DNA from: a virus
Length of the DNA stretch: 43,722 nt
Reading direction: 5' to 3' (one strand)
Virus record (IMG/VR): IMGVR_UViG_3300024054_000523
Span: 1-43,722 of that record
Shown here: piece by piece, positions 1,422 to 42,765 of the stretch
Numbering within the stretch: the stretch's first letter is position 1
How the letters are laid out: every line of letters starts with the position of its first letter
The notes under the pieces: model-generated
The model's database searches: none
Seen by the model: only the letters and a program-made list of their open reading frames with translations
Told to the model about the DNA's origin: nothing
Translations under genes and position numbers: made by a program

Positions 1422-4400
1422 TCATACTCCTCGCACGTAGGCGTCAATCACGGCGTCGGCCAGGACGCCAGAGGCATTGTAAATCTTAATCTCAGGGGCC
1501 AAGGCACCGCTTACCGTCCTGGCCTTGTTGATCACCACAGAGGACCAGCCAGCCGTTACCCCCTGCATGGCGATCATCACCTGGGTCACCACCGAAAACG
1601 GTTTTGTCAGGGGCAGGTAGATGTGGCCGGCAGCCACCCGGTTGGCAGACGGAAGGCCAGAGGTGGATAGGTCATTGACCTCTTCGGTCTTGGTCTGGCC
1701 GGTGACCACAATGGACAGGGAGGACAGCGTAGGCGGCGGGCTGGTGTTGTCGGTGACAACCACCTTGATCTTGATGTACTGCGCCTTGACCATGCCCAAG
1801 GACACCCAGCCGCTCCAGTTCTGGTTGTCGGTAGAGGTGTTCATGGTGATGACAGCCGTGCCAGTGGCCACTGCCGTGGCGATCATGGTCACCTGGAGCG
1901 CCGAGCCCAGGTCAATAGCTGGGTGCTCATAGGTGAGCTGGGCGAGCGGGTTGGGAAACCAAGTGGTCCATTGATCCCAGGTGGCTGGTAGCCCGTCCCA
2001 GGTCGTCTGGTCGTTGGCCACCAGTTGCGAGCCCTCCACATGACAGCCAGTCTTGGTCCCCGGCCAAGTTGGCCTGGCGTTGACCGCATAGATGGCTTGG
2101 CCCATGCGCGGGTCACCCAGCGATCCGACGATGGCCCGCATGGCGGTTGACTCGTTGCCAGACCAATCCACCGCCTTAATCCCGAACAGGTAATCACCGG
2201 CCTCGAGGGCGTTGGTCTCCAGGGGAGACATCACCACCAGGCCGCTGGAGAGGTCGGTCATTTCTTCCCAGGTGCCGTTGGTGCCAGTCTTGTAGCGGAT
2301 GCGGAACCCGGCGAGGTCCGGTGGCCGGTAGGCCATGGACCAGCTAAATTCTCGGGTGCCATCAGCTTGGCAGGAGACAGAGAAGGCATCAACATCGGGC
2401 GGGCCGTCGCTCTTGCCGTCGATGGAGACTTGCGCCGTGTTGCCGCCGGTGCTGATCAGGCCCTTGCCAGCAGCCACCACCGTGATCTTGTAGGTGTGAC
2501 CTATTGTCAGCAGCGAGGGCGGGACCACATAGCGCAGGCCGTGGGCCGGGAATGGCCCCATGGCCGAGCCGCCCGAGGACATATCCTCCAGCCACACCTC
2601 CCAGGCCTGGGCCGGATCGGTGGCAGCGGCCAGCCACGAGACCGAGATCTGGGACATCGTGGTGCCATCCTTCTCCATCGACAGGTACTCGCTAGCGGAG
2701 ACGGCATAGGCCTTGGCTTTGGTCTTGGGGGTGTCCGGCGGGCTGATGAGGTAGACCGTATCCTGGGACAATAGCTCGCTGTACTCCCGGCCCGACACGG
2801 TCTTCTTCAGGTCGTGGGTCCGGCTGAGGCGGGTGCAGCGGTAGGTCCGCTTGTAGGTCTGCACCGGTCCGAAGCTGTACTCGTCGTAGCGGGCCGGGAC
2901 ATCGGACGGGTCAAGGGCGGCGGCAAAGGTCAGAGTGGCGGTGGTGGTCAGCGCTGAAACCTGAGCGAGGGCCTTGTCCAGGATCACGCCATCGGCGCGG
3001 CTGATCAGGATGGCGTATGCCTCACCGGCCAGCAGCGTCACCTCCCGGTCTAGGGTGATCGTGACCGTGCCGGCGGCCACGATCCGGCCAGAGTCGCCCC
3101 AGGTTGGGGCGTCGTGCATGAAGTAGAACAGATCGCCCACCTGGGTGGCCAGGGCGGCAACATCGACATCAAAGGTAATGTCCCTGATCTCCCAGGCGTT
3201 GCTGTTGAGGTCGGCCACCCCCGAGCGGACCACCTGCCCCCGCGAGGTGGAGCCGTAGGCGTTCCTGGAGGTCTTGTTGTCTGTCTCGCCGGCCTGGTCA
3301 TAGTCCGGCGAGACGATGGTGACCACCTGGCGGGAGTAGTCCAGGTCCTTGTCGTAGTAGCTGATCTCCACGGCGTTGGCCCGGTCCTCCTGGCCCAGAT
3401 AGGTCAGCTTGAAGTTGGTCACGCTGCCGGTGGTGAAGAGCTGCCGCGGCACGGCGGGCATGTCGGCCACCACGCCGTATTTTGAGCCACGGCGGATCGG
3501 TTGCGCCCGGCCAATGCGGCAGATCTGCTGGGCGTTGGTCCAGGCGTTGGCCTGGACATCGAGGTAGAGGTCGAGGCAGTAACGTTTCTCGGCGCCGCCA
3601 TCCTCGGGCCTGATGATCTCGTCGCAGTGCGCCGCCCAGGCGGCGATCTCGTCGTAGAGCATCAGGGACGGGTCGACCCCCTGGTGGGTGGTCCAAAAGG
3701 CGTAGTAGGCCCAGGCCAGGTTATCAGCCCTACGGGCGGACCAGGACCCGGTGTGCGGGTTATAGACCTGGACATAGGTCCGCTCGGCCAGGAAGGTGAT
3801 GGACGGCACGCCTCCGGAGAGCTGGTCGGTGGCCAGGGCCGTGACCGCCACCTTGGCAATGCCGGGGTAGGTTAGGTTCTGCTTGATCACCTCCCGGTGC
3901 GACGCCAAAAATATCGTGGTCTTCTCGCGGTACGACGTCGACTCGGCATTGGTCCGGCGGAGGCGGAACTCGTACTGGCCGGCGCTTAAGTTGTCGATGG
4001 TGTAGGTCTGGCGCACGGCCTGGGTGGTGGCCCCGGACAGGGTGGCCGTGCCGTGCTTGACAAAGGCGCCGCCCGCCAGGCCGTACCAGACCTCGATCAC
4101 CGCCTGGCGGTTGTCGAGCCCGCCGCCATCGTTGCTGTAAAACAGGCCATAGGGGGCAACGAGGTCGATCTCGATTGTCTCCACCTCGTTGCCGGTGGTG
4201 GTCCGGTCGAGGTTGGCAGTGGTCAGCTTTACCCCATGGTCGATCTGGGCCACGATCTGGTCAAAGCCGGGGATCACCGCGTCGTTCAAGCCACCAGGAC
4301 GGGTATAGGTGGTGACGCCCTGGAAGTGGGAGGCATCCTGGCCGTTGATCTCGACCTTGGAGATGGCCACGCTGTCCACGCCCTCGGTGTCGGCCACGCC

Positions 4401-25294: not shown

Positions 25295-25684
25295 ATGGCC
25301 TCAAAAAATGACCTTGAAATCCAGAGAGTCAAATCTTCCACCGATAAATTCGGTTTTGTCTGCGGGCTATTTGAGCAAGTAGTAAGAACCGTAGGCGGGC
25401 TGGGCGCCCTCTGGATTATTTTCGCAGGACTCAAGCCATTTCTCGCATCAAACCCTGCTACCATTAATGCAATGTCAGCATTAATTGAGAAAATAAACAT
25501 TTCAAACATAACAGGATATTTCTTAGCAGCCGCCGTAGGAACTGGATGGCTCATTGAAAGAAAAGGAAAAAAACGTGCCATTAAGCAAAAAGGCAAATAC
25601 CAGAAGATGGTTGAAGAAAACGATCCTTACCGTTCATCAAGTGGATTAACAAGCATAGGCGAGACTCCAGGAGGTGAATCATGA
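25295..25684 (+). CDS. Small two-TM membrane protein
   Basis: Using the ATG at 25295 (M-A-S-K-N-D-L-E) the protein has 129 residues with two membrane segments: G-G-L-G-A-L-W-I-I-F-A-G-L (about 35-50) and Y-F-L-A-A-A-V-G-T-G-W-L-I (about 78-92). A basic tail follows (R-K-G-K-K-R-A-I-K-Q-K-G-K) and a Ser/Gly-rich end. A longer frame with a GTG at 25235 is possible. Its TGA overlaps the ATG of the next gene by four bases (ATGA), so the two products are probably made in equal amounts and may form a complex. No known family recognised. Confidence 0.6.
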   Translation: MASKNDLEIQRVKSSTDKFGFVCGLFEQVVRTVGGLGALWIIFAGLKPFLASNPATINAMSALIEKINISNITGYFLAAAVGTGWLIERKGKKRAIKQKGKYQKMVEENDPYRSSSGLTSIGETPGGES

Positions 25685-26298
25685 TAAATACTGTATTTTT
25701 TGGAATCAATATCATATTGTTGTTTTATGTTTGGAAATTCATTTTAAGGCCATCAATATTAGATTACTTCAGAGATAGATTATTTGATCTGAGAGAAGAA
25801 GTTAGGGATTTTTATATATTAAAAAATATACCACTAAGCGATAACACTTACAAATCATTAAGGGATTTGCTAAATAATCACTTAAGATTTACTGAAAAAT
25901 TATCATTATCTAATGTTTTTTATTTTTCTGCTAAAATTGATAAAAACATTGAATTAAAAAATTTCATAAAGCATGAAATAGAAAATAAATTTAAAACAGA
26001 TGATGAGCGTCTCTCAATTTTCATAAAAAAAGCTAGGCTAACATCATCTAGAATACTTATTTATTATATGATATTTTCTTCACCGTTGTTAATATTACTG
26101 TTTTCATCTATACTTGTTTATCGCATTCCATTATTTATGGCTGGGAAAATAATATCATCAATCAATGACGAGATAAAACTTATTAGCTCTACACTAAGAG
26201 GGACATCGGAAATAGTAAATAAATACATAACAACAAACGATGACCTTGAAGAGCTATCATACAAGTTATCAAACGGAGATTTTGCCACAGCAGTTTAA
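25681..26298 (+). CDS. Membrane protein, partner of 25295 gene
   Basis: The 205-residue protein has an N-terminal membrane segment (I-N-I-I-L-L-F-Y-V-W-K-F), a charged middle with Asn/Lys/Asp-rich helices, a second hydrophobic segment Y-Y-M-I-F-S-S-P-L-L-I-L-L-F-S-S-I-L-V-Y (about 120-140), and a soluble acidic C-terminus. Its base composition is far more AT-rich than that of the phage modules, so it was probably acquired separately. Coupled to the two-TM protein gene by ATGA and closed by a terminator, the pair looks like an independent two-gene cassette, for example a superinfection-exclusion or toxin/antitoxin-like unit; no motif supports either. Confidence 0.65.
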   Translation: MINTVFFGINIILLFYVWKFILRPSILDYFRDRLFDLREEVRDFYILKNIPLSDNTYKSLRDLLNNHLRFTEKLSLSNVFYFSAKIDKNIELKNFIKHEIENKFKTDDERLSIFIKKARLTSSRILIYYMIFSSPLLILLFSSILVYRIPLFMAGKIISSINDEIKLISSTLRGTSEIVNKYITTNDDLEELSYKLSNGDFATAV

Positions 26299-26350: not shown

Positions 26351-26633
26351 TTTTTGCTTCAATATCCCCACCATTAACTATCCTCCTGATCTGCCTGGAC
26401 GACAGGTCGAACCTCACCCCCAACTCAGCCGTATTGTCGCCCCGGAAAAGCGTCCTGATTTTCTTGTCCCGCCTGGCGCGCTCAACCTCGTCCATCGTCG
26501 GCACCGTTATCCGCAAGCCGCCGAGCTCATCGATTAAGAGCATCATCACCACCCGGGCATGATCAACGCCGAGCTCCTCATGCACCCTGGCCTCGAACCG
26601 TGTCAGCAGTTCCCTATTCTCCGCTCTCACCAC
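26340..26633 (-). CDS. Mor/C-family transcription activator
   Basis: The 97-residue protein (GTG start) has a helical N-terminal half (L-L-T-R-F-E-A-R-V-H-E-E-L-G), then G-G-L-R-I-T-V-P-T-M-D-E-V-E-R-A-R-R-D-K-K-I-R-T-L-F, F-R-G-D-N-T-A-E-L, and R-F-D-L-S-S-R-Q-I-R-R-I-V-N. This matches the Mu Mor/C activator layout: a dimerisation part, a strand with a Thr-Val-Pro phrase and a C-terminal HTH. Mu Mor activates middle genes and C activates late genes. Here it could switch on the late operon from 22434 leftward. It overlaps the integrase stop and is coupled to it, with GGAGGGGAGAG as the ribosome-binding site. Confidence 0.7.
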   Translation of the reverse strand: MVRAENRELLTRFEARVHEELGVDHARVVMMLLIDELGGLRITVPTMDEVERARRDKKIRTLFRGDNTAELGVRFDLSSRQIRRIVNGGDIEAKKKW

Positions 26634-27591
26634 CTCTCCCCTCCGTGTAGAGTTTTTCCCAAGGCCGCCAATAGTCGCGCAGGCTGCGGTACTGCTCGTT
26701 GATCCTCCCCCGGCGGGGGAGATAGGTGTCTGTCGTCGCAATATTCCTATGCCCGAGCCGAGCTGCAATGGCCGGCACGGTAAATCCCTTGATAAACAAC
26801 AAGTCTGATCCATGAGTCGCCCTGAAAATGTGAGAGTGATTGCGTGTCTTGCGTATCTCGGCCGTGGCGGCCAATTTTTTCACTAAACGGTCTATGTCGT
26901 TGTTAGAGAGCTGGCGGCCGGAGCAATGGTCACCTCGGCGGTAGGAGACGAACAACGGGTCGTTGCTCTTTGCCCCTTGGGACAGTCGAAGCCCAACCCA
27001 CTGGCGGATGAACTTTGACGGGGCCAGCCATAAATCTACCATTCGGAAATGCCCTTGCTTCCCGATGTCTTCGGTTACCTGGATGTCGATATATTCGCCA
27101 TCGTCGGAGATATTGACCATCTTGAGCCCGCAAAGCTCTCCCACCCGGAGACCAGCGAAGGCCATGATGATCAAAATACAGGTGTCGCGCAGGCCTTTTT
27201 CTGTGTTTAGCGGACAAGCAGAGAAGAACCTGATCACCTCGGCCTTGGTGAAGTATTGCATCATCCTCCGCTTTATCCTTGGCCTCGGGATCTGGGCGGT
27301 AATATCTGCCGGGACATGATTCTCATAAAACAAGAACCGCCAGAAGCCGGACAATGCCCCAAGTTTTGTATGCCGAGTATAGGTGCCGTTATGCTCGTTG
27401 TAGTAGAGGTGTTTCAGCCAAGCCTCGACATCCTCTCTGGTGATATTCCTTGCCTCAGTTGCCCGCCCAGAATCAGAGAGCCACTTAAAAAATGAAGCTA
27501 CCCGCCGCTGATTGTCTGTCACGCTCCGCTGGGACAGCCCGCGCAGCACGATCAAGTGCTGGCCGTATTGCTCCAAAAGCTCTGTCAGCAT
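26614..27591 (-). CDS. Tyrosine recombinase, XerD-like (interior of prophage)
   Basis: The 325-residue protein has the SAM-like core-binding domain (N-Q-R-R-V-A-S-F-F-K-W-L, about 20-100) and a full catalytic domain. The catalytic Arg is in F-A-G-L-R-V-G-E-L, the H-x-x-R motif is S-H-I-F-R-A-T-H-G, the second His is in A-R-L-G-H-R-N-I, and the Tyr is in T-T-D-T-Y-L-P. All four are present. A C-terminal tail (E-Q-Y-R-S-L-R-D-Y-W-R-P-W-E-K-L-Y) follows. The ATG at 27591 is preceded directly by G-runs of seven bases. It lies next to the Mor-like gene and about 400 bases from the iterons. It may serve resolution or another integration path, because a different integrase stands at the host junction. 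Confidence 0.75.
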   Translation of the reverse strand: MLTELLEQYGQHLIVLRGLSQRSVTDNQRRVASFFKWLSDSGRATEARNITREDVEAWLKHLYYNEHNGTYTRHTKLGALSGFWRFLFYENHVPADITAQIPRPRIKRRMMQYFTKAEVIRFFSACPLNTEKGLRDTCILIIMAFAGLRVGELCGLKMVNISDDGEYIDIQVTEDIGKQGHFRMVDLWLAPSKFIRQWVGLRLSQGAKSNDPLFVSYRRGDHCSGRQLSNNDIDRLVKKLAATAEIRKTRNHSHIFRATHGSDLLFIKGFTVPAIAARLGHRNIATTDTYLPRRGRINEQYRSLRDYWRPWEKLYTEGRGGESGE

Positions 27592-27682
27592 CCCCCCCGC
27601 GCCCCCCCTTGGACAAGGTCTGAAAAATCTCCCCAATTTAGAGGAGCCAATCGCATGAGGGGTTGACCCCAATGCCCAAATC

Positions 27683-27717
27683 TTTCGACCGGGGGTGGGG
27701 GTTCGACCCCCTCCATG
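27683..27717 (+). other. tRNA 3'-end-like GTTCGAC stem-loop
   Basis: GGGGG-TTCGA-CCCCC, followed by a CCATGACCGCC-like stretch, resembles a tRNA T-arm and acceptor end. No 5' half is present, so it is not a tRNA gene. It could be an att-like copy left next to the integrase gene, or a chance palindrome. Confidence 0.25.
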
Positions 27718-27812
27718 ACCGCCCAATCCCAACAAATCCCAACACGAACCGCATAATTCATAAAATCCCCCACCAGCTATCCCCCACCAAATGGCAACAC
27801 ACCCAACCAACT

Positions 27813-31501: not shown

Positions 31502-31726
31502 TTATCCCAGCGCAAGGTGTGCGCCGTGCTCCTCTTCGTACTCAGCCACCTTGCCAAGCAGGATGAAAAAATGGGCAACGCTTTGCGCTCGTATGGACCT
31601 GGCCAAAAGCACCAGGTGCCGTTCGTGCTTGGTCACTGGCATGGCATCCGCCTTGACCTCCAGTTCAGGATATTGCTGCTGCCGCTGTGGTTTGCGAAAG
31701 GGAATGATTTTGACTTGCGTGCTCAT
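31502..31726 (-). CDS. Small hypothetical protein downstream of antirepressor
   Basis: The 74-residue protein is basic at the N-terminus (Q-V-K-I-I-P-F-R-K-P-Q-R-Q-Q-Q-Y) and helical after that (H-E-R-H-L-V-L-L-A-R-S-I-R-A-Q-S-V-A-H-F). Its ATG overlaps the antirepressor stop by four bases (ATGA), and GGAGGTGAG stands just in front, so it is surely translated. No family recognised. It lies in the early operon ahead of the primase gene. Confidence 0.65.
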   Translation of the reverse strand: MSTQVKIIPFRKPQRQQQYPELEVKADAMPVTKHERHLVLLARSIRAQSVAHFFILLGKVAEYEEEHGAHLALG

Positions 31727-32286
31727 GCCTCACCTCCATTCATGCCAGGAAGGGCCATTTGCGGCGATGGCGGAGGAACGTAAAGTGGTGCCCCCCTCCT
31801 GAAGGTTGCCCCACACCCCTTGAGTATCTTTCTGAGGTATCTGGCCTCGCTTTCGTTTTCCTCCAGAAGGGTCATGGTATGATCAAAAAGCGCCCTGGCC
31901 TGGTCAAGATCGTCGGGGATTTCCAGGGGTGGCAGCTTGCGGTAGCCGCCAGTCTTGCGGATGGTGGGTAGCACTTCGGAGGTTACCCACTTGCGGAAGA
32001 TTCTGGCCTGCTTTTTATTAGAACGGATGATCAGGGTGAAGAGGCCAGACTCGGAAATAATGTTGGTTCCAGGCCCAGGTAACCCTATCGAAACGATAGC
32101 TTTCTCGTCATCGTCAAGATGATCTAAAAGCGTTTGGGTTGGGTTTGAATATCCAAGGATATCGCACACATCCTTGGCGATAAACCACGGATTGCCTTTC
32201 CCGTCGATGATGGCGCGGATAGGGTTATTTTGGTAATGAAAAACGGATTGAGCGACGGTGGGGGGACTGCTGGCGTTGATGCTCAT
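31723..32286 (-). CDS. BRO-N antirepressor
   Basis: The 187-residue protein has a BRO-N domain at about 18-115: V-F-H-Y-Q-N-N-P-I-R-A-I-I-D-G-K-G-N-P-W-F-I-A-K-D-V-C-D-I-L-G-Y and S-E-S-G-L-F-T-L-I-I-R-S-N, ending K-W-V-T-S-E-V-L-P-T-I-R-K-T-G-G-Y. Proteins of this family act as phage antirepressors. The C-terminal part is helical and short. The ATG at 32286 was chosen because AGGAGG precedes it; a longer frame to 32481 is a reading of the RNA leader. The Shine-Dalgarno region overlaps box b of the C4-like RNA unit just upstream, which would silence it in a lysogen. Confidence 0.85.
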   Translation of the reverse strand: MSINASSPPTVAQSVFHYQNNPIRAIIDGKGNPWFIAKDVCDILGYSNPTQTLLDHLDDDEKAIVSIGLPGPGTNIISESGLFTLIIRSNKKQARIFRKWVTSEVLPTIRKTGGYRKLPPLEIPDDLDQARALFDHTMTLLEENESEARYLRKILKGCGATFRRGAPLYVPPPSPQMALPGMNGGEA

Positions 32287-32615
32287 TGGGCACCTCCTAC
32301 TGGAAAGGGTTTTGTAGCCCAATTTCCGTCGCCAAAACGAAAAAAGGGCAGGCTGATGGATTGGCGTACCGGCAGTAGGTCCGGCGAGTCTTGCGACTCT
32401 CCACCAGCCTGCCCAAACAGAGCAAGCCAGACGGCGGGCAAAAAAATACCACCAAACGCATAAACGGTGGTGGTTGCCCACCTACTGAACCGGGACGCCA
32501 ATCCCGTGCATGGTATATCCATGCTGGCGTCACGGTACCCTATGTTCAGCGCTCGTGTCAAGAAGTAAAAAATGGCGGGGACTTTGGTGGGGGGATTGCT
32601 GGTAGGTGTACTCAT
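32283..32615 (-). CDS. Ash-like ORF overlapping RNA unit 1
   Basis: A 110-residue open frame from the ATG at 32615 runs through the whole of unit 1 and stops in the antirepressor start region. Its ribosome-binding site (AGACAGGAGC) is the target of the upstream unit 2 RNA, so it is the position that unit 2 would control. The product (L-L-T-R-A-L-N-I-G-Y-like motif, later L-A-L-F-G-Q-A-G) recalls the Ash-type ORFs that overlap such immunity RNAs in other phages. It may be translated only to open or close the leader, as icd does in P1. Confidence 0.45.
   Translation of the reverse strand: MSTPTSNPPTKVPAIFYFLTRALNIGYRDASMDIPCTGLASRFSRWATTTVYAFGGIFLPAVWLALFGQAGGESQDSPDLLPVRQSISLPFFRFGDGNWATKPFPVGGAQ
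32296..32335 (-). promoter_or_regulatory. Target boxes a and b of RNA unit 1
   Basis: In the mRNA, TTGGCG (32335-32330) follows the unit 1 RNA, and CAGTAGG (32302-32296) overlaps the antirepressor Shine-Dalgarno AGGAGG. They are complementary to CGCCAA and CCTACTG in the unit 1 RNA loop. Confidence 0.7.
32346..32414 (-). ncRNA. C4/CI-like antisense RNA, unit 1
   Basis: A 69-nt RNA closed by GGGCAGGCTG / CAGCCTGCCC with an inner GAGTC-GCAA-GACTC hairpin and followed by six U. Its loop (complement of 32358-32379) pairs with the upstream segment 32481-32504 and with the boxes at 32296-32335. The closing stem and inner stem covary with unit 2 (32672-32745). This is the architecture of the P1/P7 C4 and P4 CI RNAs. 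It would repress the BRO-N antirepressor by translation block and attenuation. Confidence 0.75.
32440..32474 (-). terminator. Terminator ahead of unit 1 RNA
   Basis: ACCACCA and TGGTGGT pair (7 bp) and are followed by seven U in the RNA sense. It stands directly after the complementary segment 32481-32504, where binding of the RNA could favour termination. Confidence 0.75.
32481..32504 (-). promoter_or_regulatory. SeqB-like segment of unit 1
   Basis: In the RNA this segment is nearly perfectly complementary to the loop of the unit 1 RNA (22 bases against 24, with one mismatch and a 2-base bulge). In P4 the same kind of segment lets CI RNA stop transcription early. Confidence 0.7.
32531..32563. 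repeat. 33-bp conserved block, copy 1
   Basis: Identical over 33 bases to 32869-32901, including third codon positions. On the minus strand it contains CTTGACACGAGCGCTGAAC and GGTACC. No -10 hexamer follows at the right distance. Confidence 0.85.
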
Positions 32616-32923
32616 AGCATTGCTCCTGTCTGGGAGTTAATAATACGCCCTGTTTCGCTACCAACGAAAAAGGGCGAGCTGAGACGGGTTGGTAGATCGG
32701 AAGACAGGACCCGACTAGCCTTGCGGCTACCCATCCAGCTCGCCCAAAGAGAGCAATGCCAGAATTTGGACGCAAAAAAACCGCCAAGAATTAAATTGGT
32801 GGCGGTATGCGTCCGCCTGTCCTTCCGGGCTACCAACCCGACACCGCCTTTTTTTGACGATGCAGGAACACGGTACCCTATGTTCAGCGCTCGTGTCAAG
32901 AGGTCAATCATCACATCAAGCAT
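32612..32923 (-). CDS. Ash-like ORF overlapping RNA unit 2
   Basis: A 103-residue frame whose ATG overlaps the stop of the OB-fold-like gene (TGATG), so ribosomes can pass into the RNA unit. It shares the L-L-T-R-A-L-N-I-G-Y-R motif with the unit 1 frame because both read through the 33-bp block; further on it reads S-L-W-A-S-W-M-G-S-R-K-A-S and S-P-F-F-V. A mainly regulatory role (keeping ribosomes on or off the leader RNA) is more likely than a protein function. Confidence 0.4.
   Translation of the reverse strand: MLDVMIDLLTRALNIGYRVPASSKKGGVGLVARKDRRTHTATNLILGGFFASKFWHCSLWASWMGSRKASRVLSSDLPTRLSSPFFVGSETGRIINSQTGAML
32624..32665 (-). promoter_or_regulatory. Target boxes a and b of RNA unit 2
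   Basis: GTTGGTAG (32665-32658) stands right after the U run of unit 2, and AGACAGGA (32631-32624) overlaps the Shine-Dalgarno ahead of the ORF starting at 32615. Both are complementary to the unit 2 RNA (CTACCAAC and TCCTGTCT). Confidence 0.7.
32672..32745 (-). ncRNA. C4/CI-like antisense RNA, unit 2
   Basis: A 74-nt RNA closed by GGGCGAGCTG / CAGCTCGCCC with an inner TAGCC-GCAA-GGCTA hairpin and five U after it. The loop (complement of 32685-32708) pairs with upstream 32816-32840 and downstream boxes at 32624-32665. Stems differ in sequence from unit 1 but keep pairing, so the structure is under selection. It would control the ORF at 32615 and everything after it in the operon. Confidence 0.75.
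32774..32806 (-). terminator. Terminator ahead of unit 2 RNA
   Basis: ACCGCCA and TGGCGGT pair (7 bp) around a 13-base AT-rich loop and are followed in the RNA by seven U. Confidence 0.75.
32816..32840 (-). promoter_or_regulatory. SeqB-like segment of unit 2
   Basis: Complementary to the unit 2 RNA loop over 24-25 bases, with a single-base bulge and two mismatches. Same place as in unit 1, just before the terminator. Confidence 0.7.
32869..32901. repeat. 33-bp conserved block, copy 2
   Basis: Identical to 32531-32563; see that entry. It is at the same distance from the terminator in both units to within a few bases. Confidence 0.85.
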
Positions 32924-33510: not shown

Positions 33511-33700
33511 GCTCTCCCCTCTTGTTTGTTTTGCGGTGTGGACATCCTGCTCCCCGATCGCACCACTCGCCTTGATTCTTGTTGCACCACGGCTCAGTAA
33601 CCCCGGCGATAACGCCCGATGATGGATAGGCCATACATCCGGCCAACCGTGTCTCTCCCCCCGCGCTGGCCTTGCTCTGCTTTGGCGTCCATGATGCCAT
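33503..33700 (-). CDS. Small Cys-rich protein
   Basis: The 65-residue protein starts with the ATG formed by the stop/start overlap TAATG of the recombinase gene, and its stop overlaps the start of the OB-fold-like gene, so it fits the operon exactly. The second half has W-C-N-K-N-Q-G-E-W-C-D-R-G-A-G-C-P-H-R-K, four Cys/His positions that could bind zinc. No family recognised. Small zinc proteins like this are common in phage early operons, often with DNA-binding or host-takeover roles. Confidence 0.6.
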   Translation of the reverse strand: MASWTPKQSKASAGGETRLAGCMAYPSSGVIAGVTEPWCNKNQGEWCDRGAGCPHRKTNKRGEHE

Positions 33701-34350
33701 TAAATCCCGCTCACCCGCGCCATCTGTTCCTTGGTCGGGGCGGTGTAGATCATGGTGCTGGAAAACGATTTGTGGCGGAGCTGCCTCGCGGCGAATTGCA
33801 GTTTCTTTTGCTGCTCCTCCGGCAACAGGCTGTAAATATCGGCCATGATCCGCTGCGCCTTGGTGTGGCGCATGGCGTGCGGGGTGTACAACGGCTCACC
33901 ATGTCTATCTATCAGTCCGGACGCCAGGCACCACTTGGCCATCAGGTCGTTGAAGGTCCTAGCGCCAATCCGCTCGCCCTTGCGGCTGACAAAGAGCGGG
34001 GCGTCATGGGCCAACGACTCCCCCCAGCTCCTCTTCTGGCGCAGGAAGGTAGTCAGTATCTGCTGCAGTTCCTGCGGCATGTAGACCTCTCCGGTCGCCC
34101 CTTTCTTGGCGATCCTCTCATCAACGACCAACTGGGCCCTGACCGATATCCCGTTCGGCGAGATGTCTCCTACATTAAGGGCAATGGCCTCTCCTCGGCG
34201 CAGCGCGGTCAACCGGCACATCTTGAGCAAGGCAAAATCCCGGTCGGCCTGCTTGCCCTTGCGGCCCTTGATCGTGGCCCACAGCTTTCTCTCCTCCGCC
34301 TCGGTTAGATAATTCTCTCCGGCCCTGGTGTTGATCTGGGTATCGCTCAT
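33700..34350 (-). CDS. Tyrosine recombinase, catalytic domain only
   Basis: The 216-residue protein has no core-binding domain; the catalytic domain starts almost at once. The catalytic Arg is in L-T-A-L-R-R-G-E-A, a Lys may be in K-K-G-A-T-G-E-V-Y, H-x-x-R is H-A-M-R in T-P-H-A-M-R-H-T-K-A, the second His is L-R-H-K-S, and the Tyr is in S-T-M-I-Y-T-A. All catalytic residues are present, so it may be active, but without the DNA-clamp domain its target choice would differ from an ordinary integrase. It lies in the early operon between the AlpA-like and Cys-rich genes, preceded by AAGGAG. Confidence 0.75.
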   Translation of the reverse strand: MSDTQINTRAGENYLTEAEERKLWATIKGRKGKQADRDFALLKMCRLTALRRGEAIALNVGDISPNGISVRAQLVVDERIAKKGATGEVYMPQELQQILTTFLRQKRSWGESLAHDAPLFVSRKGERIGARTFNDLMAKWCLASGLIDRHGEPLYTPHAMRHTKAQRIMADIYSLLPEEQQKKLQFAARQLRHKSFSSTMIYTAPTKEQMARVSGI

Positions 34351-36430: not shown

Positions 36431-36883
36431 TCATGCTTTGTCCGCTGCGTCTTTGAGCTCGGCAACCTGGCGAGAAAGCTCATCGACCAGAGCCAATATT
36501 TCACGTTTTTCCTTCCAATCAGCTTTCCCGTCCCGCATGGCATCATTAACGGTCTCGGCCACGCGCCCTAACGCCGCCTGAACATCAAGAACCTCTCCGG
36601 TCATGCAATGGTCGCATGCCACATCACGTTTCACCACGTCGTAGCCCAGAGGCCCGCAGATCACCCGGAGCGACCCCGCAACCACATCCTCCCTGCCCAA
36701 CTCCAGAAGATGCTTGTAGAGTGAGCGGAGCAGCAGATCCGGGCCGCGGGATGTCTCTCCACAAAAGTCAGGATCAGCGGCCCAGCGGTAAAACTGCCGC
36801 TTCTCTACCCTGAATAGCGTGCCCAACCGCTCGGGGCAGAGCTTCATCGTGGTCGACCAAAATTGACAACTGCGCGTGATCAT
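36431..36883 (-). CDS. Phage regulatory protein, CII/CP76-like
   Basis: The 150-residue protein is F-R-V-E-K-R-Q-F-Y-R-W-A-A-D-P-D-F, then L-L-R-S-L-Y-K-H-L-L-E-L-G-R-E-D-V-V-A-G and I-C-G-P-L-G-Y-D-V-V, a pattern similar to CP76/CII-like phage regulators. A C-terminal helical part follows (E-I-L-A-L-V-D-E-L-S-R-Q-V-A-E-L). GGAGATCAAGAC precedes the start. It lies next to the Cro-like gene, with TTGAC/TGTCA half-sites around the start, so repressor control is likely. Family assignment is tentative. Confidence 0.5.
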   Translation of the reverse strand: MITRSCQFWSTTMKLCPERLGTLFRVEKRQFYRWAADPDFCGETSRGPDLLLRSLYKHLLELGREDVVAGSLRVICGPLGYDVVKRDVACDHCMTGEVLDVQAALGRVAETVNDAMRDGKADWKEKREILALVDELSRQVAELKDAADKA

Positions 36884-37208: not shown

Positions 37209-37266
37209 ATAAAATTGACATACTTGTTAGTTTATTTTGTTGAGTTAATTGTCTACAATATTGCTC

Positions 37267-37767
37267 ATGGAAAAATTACCCCCGAAACTGTTCAATGCTG
37301 CATTATCATACCTTCTGGCTCAGCATGGGCGCGGCACCCAAGCTAGACTTGTTGCCCAGACGGGAATAGACCGCGGACAACTCAATAAAATCGTTAAGGG
37401 AAAAATTTCTGGATCGGAAGAAAACAGAGTAAAGATCTCCGCCGCACTGGAAACAACGTATGAGGATATGCTGGCGCTAGGGCGCCGTATCATGGAAGGG
37501 ACTCCAGAAGTAGAGTCAGAAGACCGTACAGGCCAGAAAGAACCTATCGCGGTAGCGGCCGAGGAGTCGGGACAGGAAGAGCGGAGAAAAACCGGGCGGA
37601 GGGTTGCCGACATATTATCGCCCCAGCTCCGGTCACTACTGGAGGCGGCCCGCTACCTGGAAAAAAACTCTCCGAACGCTTTTCACATCGTTTTAGGCAA
37701 GATTTTAGAAAGGGCCGAGATCGAGAAAGCGACAAAAGAAAAAAAAAGGGCCAACTCATCTTATTAA
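37267..37767 (+). CDS. CI-like repressor
   Basis: The 166-residue protein (ATG at 37267; a TTG start 18 bases up is possible) has an HTH N-terminal domain (A-R-L-V-A-Q-T-G-I-D-R-G-Q-L-N-K-I-V-K-G-K-I and R-V-K-I-S-A-A-L), a Glu-rich linker, and a C-terminal helical part (Q-L-R-S-L-L-E-A-A-R-Y-L-E-K-N). It lacks the LexA-like Ser/Lys autocleavage domain of lambda CI, so it is not expected to be cut by RecA. That fits control by an antirepressor (the BRO-N protein). It is divergent from the Cro-like gene around a TTGACA palindrome. Confidence 0.75.
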   Translation: MEKLPPKLFNAALSYLLAQHGRGTQARLVAQTGIDRGQLNKIVKGKISGSEENRVKISAALETTYEDMLALGRRIMEGTPEVESEDRTGQKEPIAVAAEESGQEERRKTGRRVADILSPQLRSLLEAARYLEKNSPNAFHIVLGKILERAEIEKATKEKKRANSSY

Positions 37768-39974: not shown

Positions 39975-40910
39975 ATGCTAAAGCATAATGAAAGATGGGT
40001 TTTATTTTACGGTCAACACCTGAGAACAACTCCTGAAGACCCAAAATCTCCTGATATTCCGCTACGTGATATCATCACATTGTTGCTTAACAGACAGACC
40101 GATGGCAATTGTGTTAAACTGATAAATAATGAGACTGCTGCCATACGAATAACCGACACATCACTTGACGTTGACAATAATGCACTATGCCTTCTTATCC
40201 AGTATGCAGACAAGAATGCATCAGATCCTGTGTTTAGTAATCTCATGACGGGAGAACTTAGAGTAGAACCAAAACTACTCGGAGAAGGCGTGGCCGTTTC
40301 TGCGCATATGATGATTTCGTTGACTCCACAAAAAAACAACCCCAGTGAGTATCTCACGTTGCTTGAAGATGTCCCTGGCATTGGAAAGACAATGATTGAG
40401 CATTTTTTGACAAGCGAGTTCAAAGAGGTCAGTGATTTCGTTTTTGAGGATGATAAAAATAGAGTCAGGCAGTGCAGACCTATCGTAAAAATGGAAGGGC
40501 ACATGTCGCAAACTCTCCAGGAAAGCCTTGAGAGAGGACACCTTCAAGGGTTTGAGCTCGTTCGATATGGAAAAAGAGTAGATTTTGACGAGTTTGCTTA
40601 CACGACAGATGTCACCTACACGGCTAACATCAAATGCGTCCAAACAGGAGGGGGAGGAGCTGTCGATCTGATTAAGAGAGTATCGGCGATAGCTAAAAAA
40701 AAGAAATATACGGAAATGAGAGTCCGCTATAAACGCCCAGAAGGGAGGACTCAAACAGTATCAATCCCGACCGGGAGAGAAGATGCCATAAACACCTTAT
40801 TCACGAGAATGGACCTTATAAAAGTGAGAAATCCCTTACCTCAGTGTTCGCCGTTAATCAACGAAGAGGTGTTGGGGAAATTAAAGGGATTACTGATTGC
40901 CTCCAGATAG
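39975..40910 (+). CDS. Hypothetical soluble protein, first of a two-gene unit
   Basis: The 311-residue protein begins H-N-E-R-W-V-L-F-Y-G-Q-H-L-R and has D-I-P-L-R-D-I-I-T-L-L-L-N-R, then V-P-G-I-G-K-T-M-I-E-H-F-L (about 133-145), similar to a helix-hairpin-helix motif, and a basic C-terminal region R-Y-K-R-P-E-G-R-T-Q-T-V-S. Its size and partner recall the Kiwa-like layout (soluble partner plus four-TM protein), but I see no shared sequence. The next gene starts 22 bases later. A defence or exclusion function is plausible from place and partner only. Confidence 0.6.
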   Translation: MLKHNERWVLFYGQHLRTTPEDPKSPDIPLRDIITLLLNRQTDGNCVKLINNETAAIRITDTSLDVDNNALCLLIQYADKNASDPVFSNLMTGELRVEPKLLGEGVAVSAHMMISLTPQKNNPSEYLTLLEDVPGIGKTMIEHFLTSEFKEVSDFVFEDDKNRVRQCRPIVKMEGHMSQTLQESLERGHLQGFELVRYGKRVDFDEFAYTTDVTYTANIKCVQTGGGGAVDLIKRVSAIAKKKKYTEMRVRYKRPEGRTQTVSIPTGREDAINTLFTRMDLIKVRNPLPQCSPLINEEVLGKLKGLLIASR

Positions 40911-40931
40911 AATAAAATGTAAATAAACTGC

Positions 40932-41552
40932 ATGGGACTAATTGCTCGTTTATTCAGACCGCTTGACTACGTAAGGATTAAACATCCCCATAAGGTCTAT
41001 TACGACCTTTATCTTCCTTTTTCGTTAGCAAGCATTTTGACCCTCATCTTCGTGTATTTGCCCGTCCAGCCTAAGATCCTCGGGGAGGCTGGTCTGATTA
41101 AAATAATTACAGACATTCTCCAAATCCTATCAGGATTTTATATCGCATCATTAGCCGCCATCGCCACGTTCAACAAGGAAGGGATGGATGACCTCATGGA
41201 GGGAGATCCTCCTACGCTGAAAATATTTTGCCGTGGCAAAATGATGATTGATCAGCTCACCAGGAGGCGATTTTTGTGCCTCCTTTTTGGCTATCTCTCA
41301 TTATTGAGCCTTTTTTTGTATTTCCTGGGCACGGGAACGTTTTTATTAGCCGCCAATGCAAAATATTTTTTCGCTAAGCATTCGAATCTCGAACTGGCAA
41401 AATGGGGATTTGTTTGGTTTTATCTACTACTCACTTCTAATCTTATAATCACTACACTCCTTGGCCTGTTTTACATGGTAGACCGGATCCACAGAAAAAA
41501 TATTAAGGCCAAGCGCGCCACACCCCCCTCCGGACCAGAATCCAACCTCTGA
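40932..41552 (+). CDS. Four-TM membrane protein, second of the two-gene unit
   Basis: The 206-residue protein has four predicted membrane segments near 28-45 (P-F-S-L-A-S-I-L-T-L-I-F-V-Y-L), 58-80 (I-L-Q-I-L-S-G-F-Y-I-A-S-L-A-A-I), 112-135 (L-L-F-G-Y-L-S-L-L-S-L-F-L-Y-F-L) and 155-185 (F-V-W-F-Y-L-L-L-T-S-N-L-I-I-T-T-L-L), with a basic C-terminus. It follows the 39975 gene closely and precedes the integrase gene. The pair looks like one functional unit, with a soluble sensor or effector and a membrane partner. Confidence 0.65.
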   Translation: MGLIARLFRPLDYVRIKHPHKVYYDLYLPFSLASILTLIFVYLPVQPKILGEAGLIKIITDILQILSGFYIASLAAIATFNKEGMDDLMEGDPPTLKIFCRGKMMIDQLTRRRFLCLLFGYLSLLSLFLYFLGTGTFLLAANAKYFFAKHSNLELAKWGFVWFYLLLTSNLIITTLLGLFYMVDRIHRKNIKAKRATPPSGPESNL

Positions 41553-41565
41553 TGTCGCTTAGACC

Positions 41566-42765
41566 ATGGGCGTCACGATCCGACAAAAGCCTAAAGGTTC
41601 AGGCATCTGGTATGTGTTCGTCAACCACAATGGGGAGCGAACCTCCAGGAAGATCGGCAGAGACCACCGTCTGGCAGTTAAGGTTAAACGAGAACTGGAA
41701 GAGAAGTTGACTCGCGGATCCCTTGGCCTCCTTGAGGTGGCCAAGGAGTGTCCAACCTTCAAGCAGTATGTCTATGGCTGGGAGTCATCGGGAGGATACC
41801 GCCTCGGGTGGCTCGACACGTCCAAACATTCCCGCAAACATTCCACCCGGGCAGGATACGAGCTGATGGTCAAAAATCATCTCTGCCCTCATTTCGGTGG
41901 CTCCCGGCTCGACCAGATTACCTCCCGCCAAATTCACGACTTCGCCATATCTCTGCTCAACAGCGGCCGCCGGAGCCAGACTGTAAAAAACGTCAAAAAT
42001 TGCCTGTCCGCAATCATGCAGCACGCCTGCAATCCGGATGGCTATATTGCAGCCAACCCGGCTCGCGGGGTGCGAATCCCCAGCCCGGAGCACGAACATC
42101 CCAAGAGAGAACCGGATCCCTGCACATGGGAAGAAAGAGCGGCAATCGAGACAGTGTTTCGTGAACACTATCCGGACCACTACCCTTTGGTGGCGTGCGG
42201 ATTCCGCACCGGGCTCAGGATCGGCGAGCTTTTGGGGCTACAGATCGGCGATATCGATTTCAACGCCAAACTGATAACCGTCTGCCGCGGCGTCACCATG
42301 GGCCGGGTGACTACTCCGAAGAGCAAATCAAGCCGCCGCCAGGTGCGCATGACAACGCAGCTCGTGGAGGTACTTCGGGCACATCGAGTGAAAGTTAAGG
42401 AGTTGGCGCTTAAGGGTGCGGCTGGGGTGCCGGATTGGCTATTCATCGGGCCAGGGATGCGACCGATCAACTATGGGAATTTTGTCCACCGGGTTTGGAA
42501 CCGGGCATTGGAAAAGACGGGATTGCGCCGGCGCACTCCGCATGACATGAGACATACTTACGCCACCCTGCGCCTCTCAAACGGAGACAGCCTGGCAGAA
42601 GTGAGCAAGGAGATGGGGCATTCGACCATCACAATCACGTACCAGACGTACTACAAATGGTTGCCAAGCGAGAGCAAATCGGATATCGATACTCTGGACA
42701 ACGGCGCACCCATCCGCGCCCCAGGCGCACCCAACAAAAAAACGGGTCAAGGAAGTAGCCCTTAA
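41566..42765 (+). CDS. Integrase (tyrosine recombinase) at the tRNA-Cys junction
   Basis: The 399-residue protein has an N-terminal arm-binding region (G-S-G-I-W-Y-V-F-V-N-H-N-G-E-R), a core-binding domain, and a full catalytic domain with T-G-L-R-I-G-E-L (Arg), P-H-D-M-R-H-T-Y-A (H-x-x-R), M-G-H-S-T-I (His) and T-Y-Q-T-Y-Y-K-W (Tyr). It ends 14 bases from the tRNA-Cys CCA end, with its terminator in between, so it is the integrase that inserted the prophage at tRNA-Cys. It probably recognises a core within the tRNA 3' half. Confidence 0.9.
   Translation: MGVTIRQKPKGSGIWYVFVNHNGERTSRKIGRDHRLAVKVKRELEEKLTRGSLGLLEVAKECPTFKQYVYGWESSGGYRLGWLDTSKHSRKHSTRAGYELMVKNHLCPHFGGSRLDQITSRQIHDFAISLLNSGRRSQTVKNVKNCLSAIMQHACNPDGYIAANPARGVRIPSPEHEHPKREPDPCTWEERAAIETVFREHYPDHYPLVACGFRTGLRIGELLGLQIGDIDFNAKLITVCRGVTMGRVTTPKSKSSRRQVRMTTQLVEVLRAHRVKVKELALKGAAGVPDWLFIGPGMRPINYGNFVHRVWNRALEKTGLRRRTPHDMRHTYATLRLSNGDSLAEVSKEMGHSTITITYQTYYKWLPSESKSDIDTLDNGAPIRAPGAPNKKTGQGSSP

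Follow-up and report, generated by a model that had tools for sequence, protein, structure and literature searches.

Two tandem C4-type antisense RNA units of different pairing specificity upstream of a Bro-N antirepressor gene in a lambda-like prophage sequence

The window analysed here comprises positions 1 to 43,722 of the virus record IMGVR_UViG_3300024054_000523 (43,722 nucleotides) and looks prophage-like, with an integrase gene, a tRNA-Cys and an RNase III gene at its end and lambda-like tail genes elsewhere. The flanking RNase III gene had no match in viral contigs and reached 46% identity at best in genomes sampled from the phylum to which a Geobacteraceae locus belongs. Three tyrosine recombinases are encoded in this one prophage (26614-27810, minus strand; 33700-34350, minus strand; 41566-42765, plus strand), only the last of which adjoins the tRNA-Cys. 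PADLOC matched two genes at 39975-41552 (plus strand), lying between the repressor and integrase genes, to the candidate defence pair PDC-M53A/PDC-M53B, and a protein encoded at 25681-26298 (plus strand) to 1TM-TIR (E 7e-15). The minus strand carries the early left operon, which comprises genes for a CII-like protein (36431-36883), Rha and a small tyrosine recombinase, then orf195, two C4 units, the Bro-N antirepressor gene, a small ORF and the gene of a 1004-aa primase-type protein. The features on which the analysis turns are the following.

37249-37767, plus strand: Cro/C1-type HTH repressor gene
32612-32923, minus strand: 103-aa ORF through unit A, a candidate coding frame; its start overlaps the orf195 stop (TGATG) and its stop overlaps the ORF110 start (ATGA)
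32869-32901, minus strand: unit A 33-bp promoter-like block with TTGACA; best -10 candidate TACCGT, 18-nt spacer
32816-32840, minus strand: unit A a1/b1 (seqA-like) target; a1 at 32830-32840, b1 at about 32816-32828, imperfect
32774-32806, minus strand: unit A t1-like terminator hairpin, 7 bp plus T7, seen in the sequence
32669-32750, minus strand: unit A C4 antisense RNA (C4-A), RF01695 46.0 bits, over the 45-bit cut-off; stem-bounded core 32672-32745
32624-32665, minus strand: unit A a2 (32658-32665) and b2 (32624-32631, at the Shine-Dalgarno of ORF110), exact runs of 8 nt each
32283-32615, minus strand: ORF110, placed as icd is in P1; begins at unit A b2, extends through all of unit B and shares 4 nt with the antirepressor start (ATGA, 32283-32286)
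32531-32563, minus strand: second copy of the 33-bp promoter-like block, in unit B, identical to that of unit A
32480-32504, minus strand: unit B a1 (32495-32504, 10-nt exact run) and b1 (32480-32487, 8-nt exact run)
32440-32474, minus strand: unit B terminator hairpin, 7 bp plus T7, seen in the sequence
32343-32419, minus strand: unit B C4 antisense RNA (C4-B), RF01695 44.5 bits at a relaxed threshold; stem-bounded core 32346-32414
32296-32335, minus strand: unit B a2 (TTGGCG, 32330-32335, 6 nt) and b2 (32296-32302, 7 nt, at the antirepressor Shine-Dalgarno)
31723-32286, minus strand: Bro-N antirepressor gene (PF02498, E 7.5e-26; PHROG anti-repressor Ant, E 2.5e-43)

Two copies of one minus-strand arrangement thus run from 32901 to 32284, as the earlier note on this DNA had described, each with the same 33-bp block, a 7-bp hairpin followed by a T run, a closing stem (GGGCGAGCTG/CAGCTCGCCC and GGGCAGGCTG/CAGCCTGCCC, one pair per C4 RNA) and a GCAA-capped inner hairpin. 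Shuffled sequence gave an expectation of 0 matches for the block copies; no third copy occurs anywhere in the window even when 3 mismatches are allowed, no operator-like occurrence of the block motif elsewhere in the window was convincing, and an exact search of its 28-bp core in viral contigs returned no match. Comparison with other C4 units places their promoter where this block lies; the -10 half of the block is poor and a promoter scan did not pick it up, so that we regard its promoter activity as uncertain.

Both RNAs gave full-length (1-87) matches to RF01695, C4-A with E 2.0e-9 in the window record and C4-B, whose unit is homologous to unit A, with E 4.7e-9; the C4 assignment stands above the Rfam cut-off for unit A and falls 0.5 bit beneath it for unit B. 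Since this single family takes in both P1 C4 (68.8 bits) and P4 CI (74.9 bits), the naming of one unit as "C4" and the other as "CI" was dropped, and with it the idea of a P1-type and a P4-type control in series: the two units share their anatomy and are duplicates. The leaders match Rfam isrK (RF01394) weakly, at 33.3 bits in unit A (32774-32863) and 25.7 bits in unit B (32443-32525), both below the cut-off of 50. Some miRNA-family matches at the C4 sites were dismissed as low-score chance hits.

Pairing with the upstream targets was strong in both units, with duplexes of -40.9 kcal/mol for C4-A and -43.6 kcal/mol for C4-B, each matched by 0/300 shuffles. The complementarity of C4-A to a1 is exact over 11 nt, but its second box is imperfect, b1 being interrupted, and the upstream pairing described in the earlier note needs correcting to this extent. 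Downstream, both units have the two expected boxes with the second at a Shine-Dalgarno; C4-A pairs with its own boxes at -25.6 kcal/mol (8 + 8 nt; 3/300 shuffles pair equally well), but with an a2 of only 6 nt C4-B reaches -24.3 kcal/mol (6 + 7 nt), equalled by 13/300 shuffles, and downstream pairing is the weakest element of unit B. Cross-pairing, that is, of the C4 RNA of one unit with the targets of the other, stayed within the shuffle range. The pairing specificities of A and B therefore differ, each RNA fitting its own targets and not its neighbour's, which bears out the claim of two tandem C4-type units with different specificities upstream of a Bro-N antirepressor. The same relation was seen among 39 C4 units, in which exact complementarity to own versus foreign flanks averaged 14.7 versus 9.9 nt for a2 plus b2 and 7.8 versus 6.0 nt upstream, the own-target complementarity falling at fixed offsets.

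Different loops would also suit RNAs acting partly in trans, with C4-A and C4-B giving immunity against incoming phages that carry a matching unit and thus two heteroimmunity specificities. P1 and P7 differ in specificity by only 4 nt of the loop, according to the passage of PMC5320573 that cites Citron and Schuster, and the same paper describes 21 C4-like RNAs in Acinetobacter baumannii, processed at GGW. We consider such trans immunity unlikely, since no further phage bearing matching targets turned up and the known targets here are all in cis. No additional trans target of the C4 loops in the window was convincing.

Unit A (32907-32586) and unit B (32569-32257) are identical at 234/294 aligned bases (~80%), far beyond shuffles, and a 17-nt repeat makes positions 32586-32602, within ORF110, the same as 32257-32273 at the start of the antirepressor gene. 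This degree of identity, together with the common start of the downstream gene, points to an origin by tandem duplication, and the simplest history would be either a duplication of a C4 unit plus the antirepressor start or the loss of a first antirepressor. A genome of the order of a Burkholderiaceae locus (L132), G951, has two serial modules of C4 plus Bro-N, 1.4 kb apart and with differing loops, the second Bro-N ORF being truncated; it appears ancestral-like, of the ancestor type that the duplication history predicts.

The same observations could be read as leaving unit B the sole working lock, unit A being the remnant of a C4-antirepressor module that lost its antirepressor by deletion and was kept by chance or is recent. 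ORF110 does open with sequence related to the antirepressor gene start, as the repeat attests, the serial modules of G951 supply a precedent, and in another genome with neighbouring C4 units, G279, the upstream unit is incomplete. Unit A is, however, complete and outscores unit B, its 33-bp block is fully conserved, and its loops and all of its target boxes have diverged jointly from those of B while still matching one another, which requires either selection after duplication or the acquisition of an already different unit. A decayed unit A is thus possible but doubtful, and we retain the reading of two functional locks.

That reading depends in part on the reading frames. The frames of the 103-aa ORF and ORF110, which are homologous to each other, remain open through the units at a rate of about 2.5% and about 4%, respectively, in dinucleotide shuffles, which is suggestive of translation through the units but is not proof of it. 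Neither ORF has a recognised Pfam family at useful score, and in the middle of both there is no conservation from one copy to the other. In Pasteurellaceae-like arrays (L220, L222, L224, L225) a frame is likewise open across the C4 RNAs, and the P4 record (L242) carries an annotated 137-aa "cI" ORF over its C4 RNA.

C4 control of the antirepressor itself is well supported, and C4 units lie directly before Bro-N genes elsewhere as well, in plasmid pRA2, in several viral contigs and in G951. We consider it probable that one C4/CI-type control unit has been duplicated in tandem within the early left operon of what looks like a lambda-like prophage, giving two orthogonal locks on the antirepressor. 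In the lysogen, the 33-bp blocks would drive low-level transcription, the majority of transcripts would end at the t1-like hairpin, and read-through RNAs would be processed to C4 RNAs of about 69-74 nt; in P1 this processing is done by RNase P, and cleavage by that enzyme to a stable species of about 77 nt is characteristic of C4 antisense RNAs. C4-A would then pair with a2/b2 at the start of ORF110, and C4-B with a2/b2 at the start of the antirepressor gene. Because ORF110 crosses unit B and its last 4 nt are shared with the antirepressor start, as icd and ant1 overlap in P1, the two locks would act in series, C4-A blocking the coupled route via ORF110 and C4-B the direct route, so that the antirepressor would be doubly locked; this series model is conditional on translation of ORF110. 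Pairing of each C4 RNA with the a1/b1 targets of the same unit is also predicted and may promote termination at that unit's hairpin, an autoregulation of the kind reported for P4 CI at t1. With both locks released, the antirepressor would act, presumably on the Cro/C1-type repressor.

The earlier note had extended the control to a replication gene, and the units might indeed serve chiefly as P4-style attenuators of the downstream primase operon, and not as antirepressor controls. P4 CI belongs to the same RNA family, the primase gene lies about 0.3 kb past the antirepressor, and both units include a seqA-like box upstream and a t1-like hairpin. Related phages speak against it: the primases of L003 and L004 are 70-72% identical to that of the window, and neither has a C4 match at the Rfam threshold; L003 and L005 lack the C4/Bro-N cassette but retain the order int2-orf195-primase, with other DNA between; and a C4 unit ahead of the primase is absent from all three. 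Relatives that retain the primase without C4 or Bro-N indicate that the cassette is accessory and not an obligatory replication control. Moreover, the Shine-Dalgarno of the antirepressor gene coincides with b2 of unit B, and many C4 units elsewhere immediately precede Bro-N genes. Attenuation of the primase as the chief role is therefore improbable, any control of the primase would amount to no more than a polar side effect, and the antirepressor remains our preferred target. A nucleotide search of public phages and plasmids returned short Bro-N matches only, plus 148 bp of unit B in pRA2. In L003, positions 1575-1641 match the int-alpA RNA (RF02996) near the small tyrosine recombinase of that phage.

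C4/CI RNAs are a textbook case of antisense control of phage immunity and have been shown as single units. The closest counterpart is immI of P1 and P7 (c4-icd-ant), which shares RF01695 and the order of promoter, a1, b1, C4, a2, b2 at a Shine-Dalgarno and an ORF overlapping the antirepressor by 4 nt; the P1 record is annotated as P1c4, a1, b1, C4, a2, b2, icd and ant1, with icd and ant1 overlapping at 48688-48691. P1 differs in having a single unit and the Icd protein, whereas the window has two orthogonal units, the second inside the ORF in icd position, and ORF110 is not recognisably Icd. P4 CI (seqA, t1, cI/seqB, seqC) is again of RF01695, with an upstream target and a T-run hairpin preceding the RNA and a downstream target after it, but it is one unit ahead of the replication operon of a satellite, whereas here the antirepressor comes next, in a lambda-like phage. 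The isrK-orf45-anrP region of Gifsy-1 (IsrK, STnc1160) is echoed by the weak isrK matches of the window leaders; it has a single unit, however, and IsrK there activates anrP translation in trans. In Gifsy-1, read-through beyond the isrK terminator yields a downstream RNA species before the antirepressor gene, and P4 SeqA RNA has been called a structural homologue of IsrK (PMC4825925). The C4 and c4-a1b1 motifs have been described previously (PMC2864571).

We surveyed C4 in about 1,600 sampled public genomes, a scan in which weak matches are lost. C4-positive genomes made up 83/395 of those from the Gallibacterium order (L143), 53/399 from that of L132, 60/391 from that of a Microbulbifer locus (L114) and 6/345 from the phylum to which a Geobacteraceae locus (L098) belongs. 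An alignment of eight C4-linked Bro-N proteins was too diverse for scanning genomes, and six were used instead. Same-strand C4 neighbours within about 0.8 kb occurred in G450, G262, G067, G427, G189 (a triple and a pair), G279 and G1466, and these units were mostly complete with orthogonal loops, although the second unit of G262 has no upstream target of its own. The Gammaproteobacteria arrays (G189 triple, G450, G067, G427, G1466) resemble the window in having two or three complete tandem units with orthogonal loops and differ from it in a spacing of about 490-750 bp and a small ORF of its own after each unit, and none of these arrays precedes a Bro-N gene.

The tandem C4 units of the window are real, unremarkable as to family and unusual in their arrangement. 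The earlier note knew of no described phage with two such units, and we likewise found no description of tandem C4 units in the literature searched, mostly non-subscription journals, but orthogonal pairs and one triple array do exist in other genomes; the C4 switch is well known, and its tandem arrangement seems to be undescribed yet present in several other bacterial genomes. What is new at this locus is the layout of the ORF targeted by unit A: it takes the place of icd, contains the whole of unit B and shares 4 nt with the antirepressor start, which suggests two locks, one nested in the other. More tentatively, tandem orthogonal C4 units may represent a recurrent layered-immunity architecture, in which nested translational coupling would let the antirepressor answer only if both RNAs are lost, as a two-key lysogeny switch. 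In the copies described here and in several other genomes, loops and targets diverge jointly, which provides natural orthogonal repressor-target pairs within one transcript, and tandem arrays make testable how antisense specificities split after duplication, whether spontaneous induction is reduced by two locks and whether superinfection immunity is widened by such arrays.

Some of these loci have features of their own. In the triple array (L224, G189:C37), three complete C4 units lie in tandem at 629-718, 1116-1201 and 1630-1717 (minus strand) with three loop specificities, and one open frame of about 650 codons passes through all of them. In L247 (G1466, of the order of L114), two orthogonal units lie 626 bp apart; the 78-aa genes that follow them are almost identical to each other, resemble DUF3077 by eye and are not antirepressors. 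In L227-L233, from the phylum of a Geobacteraceae locus and outside the orders richest in matches, C4 units have upstream targets and a terminator, and several of them precede antirepressor-like genes.
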